From positions 62,001 through 126,000 of the forward strand of contig NZ_PNYB01000009.1 in the NCBI RefSeq assembly GCF_002879855.1: DNA of 64,000 bases, written 5' to 3'. Shown here in pieces: positions 40,638-41,668 of the stretch (position 1 is the first letter of the stretch; the number at the start of each line of letters is the position of its first letter). The notes under the pieces are model-generated. The model ran no database searches and had not been told where the DNA came from. It saw only the letters and a program-made list of their open reading frames with translations. Origin of the DNA: Trinickia soli (GTDB taxonomy: Bacteria > Pseudomonadota > Gammaproteobacteria > Burkholderiales > Burkholderiaceae). The position numbers and the translations under genes were made by a program.

Positions 40638-41411
40638 TCATCGGTGGCTCAGGCGGCGCACGAGCCAGTCGCCGAACGATTGCACGAGCTGCACGAAGAC
40701 AATCAGGATAACGACGACCGTGACCATCACTTCGGGCAAAAACCGCTGGTAGCCGTAGCGGATGCCGAGGTCGCCCAGGCCGCCGCCGCCGATCGCGCCG
40801 GCCATCGCAGAGTAGCCGACGAGCGACACGAAGGTGATCGTGAGGCCGGCGACGTTGCCTGGCAGCGCTTCGGGCCACAACACCTTGAAGACGATCTGGC
40901 GCGTACTCGCGCCGAGCGCCTCGGCCGTTTCGATCAGACCGCGGTCCACTTCACGAGCGATGCCGACACGTTGCTTTTGCCCGCCGCTGATGTGCGCGGG
41001 ATAGCGGTCCTTCAGCGCCGTCAGGCCGACCAGTTCGAGCAGCGGCAACACCGTGGCCTCGATCGCGGCGCGTTTCATGCCGGCGGGTTCCAGCGGCAAT
41101 GCGACGTTGTCGAAGACCGTGCGCGAATTGAGCAGGTTGAAATGCTGAAAAACCATGCCGATCTCGCGGCGCGCTTCTCGCAGCGCCTGCGCGGGCAACG
41201 TGTTCAACACCTTCCCATCGACGACGACTTCCCCGGCGCTGGGCCGCGCCAGCAGATTGATCGTGCGCACGAGCGTGCTCTTGCCCGCGCCGCTGCGGCC
41301 GATGATGCCGAAGATCTGCCCGGCCGGAATACTCAGATTGATGTCGTGCAGCGCCTCGACCCAGCCGTTTGGGCCGGCGAAACGCTGCGAGATATGACGA
41401 AGTTCGATCAT
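40638..41411 (-). pseudogene. metN::metI chimeric ORF (methionine ABC transporter, internal deletion)
   Basis: One uninterrupted frame of 257 codons joins two proteins. Residues 1-153 are the N-terminal half of MetN, the methionine importer ATPase: Walker [10 protein letters not shown] (38-46), Q-loop Gln89 in [11 protein letters not shown], and the signature ISGGQKQ (141-147) ending at GIAR. Residue 154 onward is the C-terminal half of the permease MetI: the EAA loop ([20 protein letters not shown]), [20 protein letters not shown] and a last membrane helix. The Walker B and H-loop of MetN and the first transmembrane helices of MetI are missing, about 1 kb compared with the normal tandem genes. 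The junction is near 40953/40952. metQ is not in the remaining 240 bp before etfB. ATPase and permease function are presumably lost. Confidence 0.85.
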
Positions 41412-41668
41412 GAAAGACAAAGACGGCGGCGCCTGCCAGAGGCCGCGTGGCGCGTGCCGCGCCGAAGCAGTGGGCCGCCGTCGCTAGTGGTAAATGGAAT
41501 CGAATGACGACCGTGCGATTTTATCGCGCCGCACAAATAGGCTTTAATAATTAATCGCCACTTCTTCATAAGTTTTAGAAATTAGAGGAAGGCGCCGCGT
41601 CGGTGGAGCGGCGACTCGCGGGCCGTACCGCTATGATCCCGCCCAAGACCAAAGCGAGGAGACGAACA

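Follow-up and report, generated by a model that had tools for sequence, protein, structure and literature searches.

The MetNI-Q methionine importer consists of an ATPase (MetN), a permease (MetI) and a binding protein (MetQ). Internal deletions that extend across two neighboring genes are a known source of pseudogenes. They remove a stretch that intact relatives retain and leave an open chimeric frame in one lineage. In a 64,000 bp stretch of the Trinickia soli genome (hereafter the window, meaning the whole stretch analyzed), we identified a gene that can be compared with both. Like the genes of the MetNI-Q importer, it has clear MetN and MetI sequence in its two halves and occupies the place before etfB that is usual in the genus; it differs in lacking the latter half of MetN and the first half of MetI, and the remnants form one frame. 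It shares all three features of the pseudogenes made by deletion across two genes, and we found no difference of note from them. We consider it highly probable that one internal deletion created this in-frame metN-metI remnant, that the gene is most likely a recent pseudogene, and that methionine is probably obtained via MetE and MetH.

The fused gene is a 257-residue open frame on the minus strand, from an ATG at 41411 to a stop codon at 40640–40638 (window positions 40638–41411). Pfam places ABC_tran at residues 21–154 and BPD_transp_1 at residues 148–255. In NCBIfam, residues 1–155 correspond to positions 1–155 of 343 in the MetN family TIGR02314 (~197.5–198.1 bits, cut-off 499.7) and residues 154–257 to positions 114–217 of 217 in the MetI family NF008049 (~111.6–111.8 bits, cut-off 212); both scores are well below the curated cut-offs for full-length proteins. 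The frame and these borders confirm a preliminary description, made from the sequence alone, of an in-frame metN::metI chimera with its junction at residue 153/154 (40953/40952). The MetN remnant includes what we take to be Walker A, the Q-loop and the signature motif, and the MetI remnant presumably carries the EAA loop and the last membrane helices. In the intact MetN of one congener (G009), the shared residues IAR are followed by a stretch that is absent from the fused frame and that we take to contain Walker B, the D-loop and the H-loop. This comparison and the family positions uphold the earlier claim that these three motifs and the first half of MetI are missing. As they and the rest of MetN are gone, methionine import by MetNI should be lost.

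Table 1. Features of the fused metN-metI gene and its upstream region (window positions)
Feature	Position	Strand	Basis
MetN N-terminal 153 residues	40953..41411	-	TIGR02314 match; 77.8–93.5% identity to MetN of 10 congeners
MetI C-terminal 104 residues and stop codon	40638..40952	-	NF008049 match; 91.3–97.1% identity to MetI of 10 congeners
Putative deletion junction	40952..40953	-	Outer span of 771 bases, 1675 bases in congeners; flank comparison
Upstream region with blocks common to congeners	41412..41640	-	Alignment to 6 of 10 congeners

The comparison with close relatives proposed in the preliminary description gave a uniform result. With the chimera as query, metN and metI were found as intact, separate genes in all ten other species of the genus, with MetN matching query residues 1–156 (1–155 in G010) and MetI matching residues 152–257. 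The MetN open frames of these congeners are 361–397 residues long. The outer span (Table 1), measured between the same ends, has the same length in all ten and gives a net loss of 904 bases here. In each congener an etfB match lies 3′ of metI on the same strand, about 210–350 bases further on (in G004, where the contig ends, only 48 codons from the start of etfB are present), and a divergent hydrolase-like gene lies upstream; the names of both neighbors are our own reading of the sequences. The separate genes, the constant 1675-base span and the position of etfB after metI indicate a deletion rather than an old shared fusion.

We extended the comparison to 398 genomes of the family, including that of T. 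soli, of which 300 had a match at an E-value of 1e-45 or better and 98 did not. Taking the best E-value of each matching genome, the T. soli genome scored 7.0e-166 over residues 1–257, and the next genome 2.0e-88 over residues 1–156. A fused gene conserved in relatives would count against a deletion; a match over the whole chimera was found in none of the other 397 family genomes, in a search where fusions joined elsewhere could show as two matches. Among the best 80 of 584 relatives in a collection of named genomes, where the records of T. soli itself may be missing, 56 had a MetN-like part with a MetI-like part after it; in none of the 80 did a match span the full length or the two parts lie, in that order, within 1300 bases of each other. 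Within these 80, the MetN part came closest to sequences from Burkholderia sp., Paraburkholderia and Caballeronia (79–82% identity). The titles and abstract openings returned by a thin literature search make no mention of a fusion of this kind.

Some other arrangements were seen in these searches. One locus (L162), in which a short stretch appeared to match residues 2–254, was rejected as a fusion: it consists of a permease gene and then an ATPase gene, in separate open frames and in the opposite order. Another genus of the family has two tandem metN-metI copies with equal match scores, 3143 bases apart (L061, G021:C1:1049709-1054526). In a related genus, the near-complete genomes G265 and G303 have one match each at the 1e-45 threshold (1.0e-53 and 2.7e-46), where their congeners mostly have two; metN may have been lost, have diverged or have been cut by a contig end in these genomes.

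The sequences on either side of the junction can be read in the relatives. On the MetN side the flank encodes Ile-Ala-Arg-Ala and on the MetI side Leu-Arg-Glu, and the two have in common an Arg codon plus G, ~4 bases, in 9 of 13 aligned rows (the other four, L056, L055, L054 and L051, are shifted; L060 was not included). Lengths from this junction comparison are 903 bases in nine rows, 904 in three and 895 in one, owing to small gaps near the ends of the BLAST pieces; the figure of 904 comes from the outer spans. The preliminary description had proposed a short-homology deletion in CGCG-rich sequence. The ~4 bases common to the flanks in relatives agree with short homology, but a marked CGCG repeat does not occur. 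The common sequence thus hints at a short-homology deletion, as judged from relatives rather than from the strain's own parent. A single internal deletion, perhaps at this ~4-base sequence and with a net loss of 904 bases, would have removed the latter half of metN together with the first half of metI, and by chance the remnants would have been joined in frame. A product without Walker B, the D-loop, the H-loop and the C-terminal domain of MetN, and without half of MetI, would not form a working methionine importer, and methionine would then probably be made by MetE and MetH.

It is also conceivable that the genome has a normal metN-metI pair and that the assembler skipped 904 bases. This is a draft genome of 103 contigs and the fusion occurs in just one of 398 family genomes, as an assembly error might. 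However, the ~4 bases that the two ends have in common in relatives are too few to mislead an assembler, and the site is interior to a 236020-base contig. No other contig was found to carry the missing stretch: a 902-base query from the corresponding part of G009 gave only 44 short matches in the T. soli genome (best, 47.3 bits), the three best of which are in or adjoin matches to other ABC ATPases. A minor argument on the same side comes from the MetI part, where L26W replaces a Leu common to all 14 aligned relatives and I33N occurs at a position that is I or V in all 14. We therefore regard an assembly error as unlikely.

We evaluated selection on the remnants of the gene. With the two remnants combined, the lineage leading to this genome has a dN of 0.022, a dS of 0.336 and a dN/dS of 0.066, compared with a dN/dS of 0.056–0.091 in six close congeners with intact genes. 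Taken singly, the MetN part has 0.072 (0.073–0.154 in congeners) and the MetI part 0.055 (0.007–0.075); the MetQ lineage has 0.080 (0.067–0.158 in six congeners). Lineage dS is 0.19–0.54 over the gene sets, and these ratios are accordingly rough. We saw no clear evidence of decay in the remnants: at positions that are otherwise invariant across 11 genomes, this genome has three changes and the ten others have zero to seven, so its count is not unusual. The three are L109P, in the MetN part, and T16S and L26W, in the MetI part; at each of these positions all 14 aligned relatives have the same residue. Had selection ended long ago, a higher ratio would be expected, and the importer thus probably still worked along most of the branch. 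The ordinary dN/dS and the conserved upstream region make the deletion look recent, and the dN/dS supports, although it does not prove, the earlier suggestion of a recent event.

The same two observations would also be expected if selection had retained the chimera. The fused gene could encode a functional protein, such as a membrane-anchored piece able to bind the ATPase of another transporter, and a residual role of this type had been suggested in the preliminary description. The reading frame is still open, which speaks in its favor, the upstream region has blocks common to six congeners, and dN/dS is ordinary. Against this, MetN lacks its second half and MetI its first, the fusion occurs in one species only (10 congeners and 398 family genomes compared), and MetI-part residues 26 and 33, both changed at conserved positions, lie in what we take to be the EAA-loop region. 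The idea was not borne out, and we consider it very improbable. Still less probable is the more specific case in which the chimera is expressed and has been retained as a novel membrane-anchored protein, its EAA loop serving to cap or regulate another ABC ATPase. The fused gene looks like ordinary gene loss.

Searching the genome for a second metNIQ, as had been proposed, we found no further MetN or MetI and one metQ elsewhere. In the MetN family search of the genome nothing exceeded the cut-off (the remnant scored best, and other ABC ATPases reached up to 190.4 bits), and in the MetI family search nothing beyond the remnant scored above 35.8 bits. The best other candidate, a partner pair in contig C5, was rejected as a second MetNI; its cluster looks like what we take to be a choline/betaine importer. 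The sole MetQ (306.8 bits) is an open frame of 282 residues at L064 (G000:C81:251105-251821). The preliminary description had remarked that metQ is missing before etfB. It is indeed absent there, but this is normal rather than damage, because metQ copies lie apart from metNI in all ten congeners, either on a different contig or 21 kb or more away. In the whole window there was no Rfam match to a methionine riboswitch at the gathering score. For synthesis, metE is present over its cut-off without a stop, and metH, likewise above its cut-off, is split into two neighboring frames of 398 and 905 residues (L172, G000:C81:188167-191835). A split metH is probably usual in Burkholderia relatives.

The main use of the finding is in annotation: the gene is best labeled as a remnant and should not serve as grounds for predicting methionine import. 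In addition, an apparently intact MetQ without a recognizable MetNI in one species is a natural case for asking about another use of MetQ.
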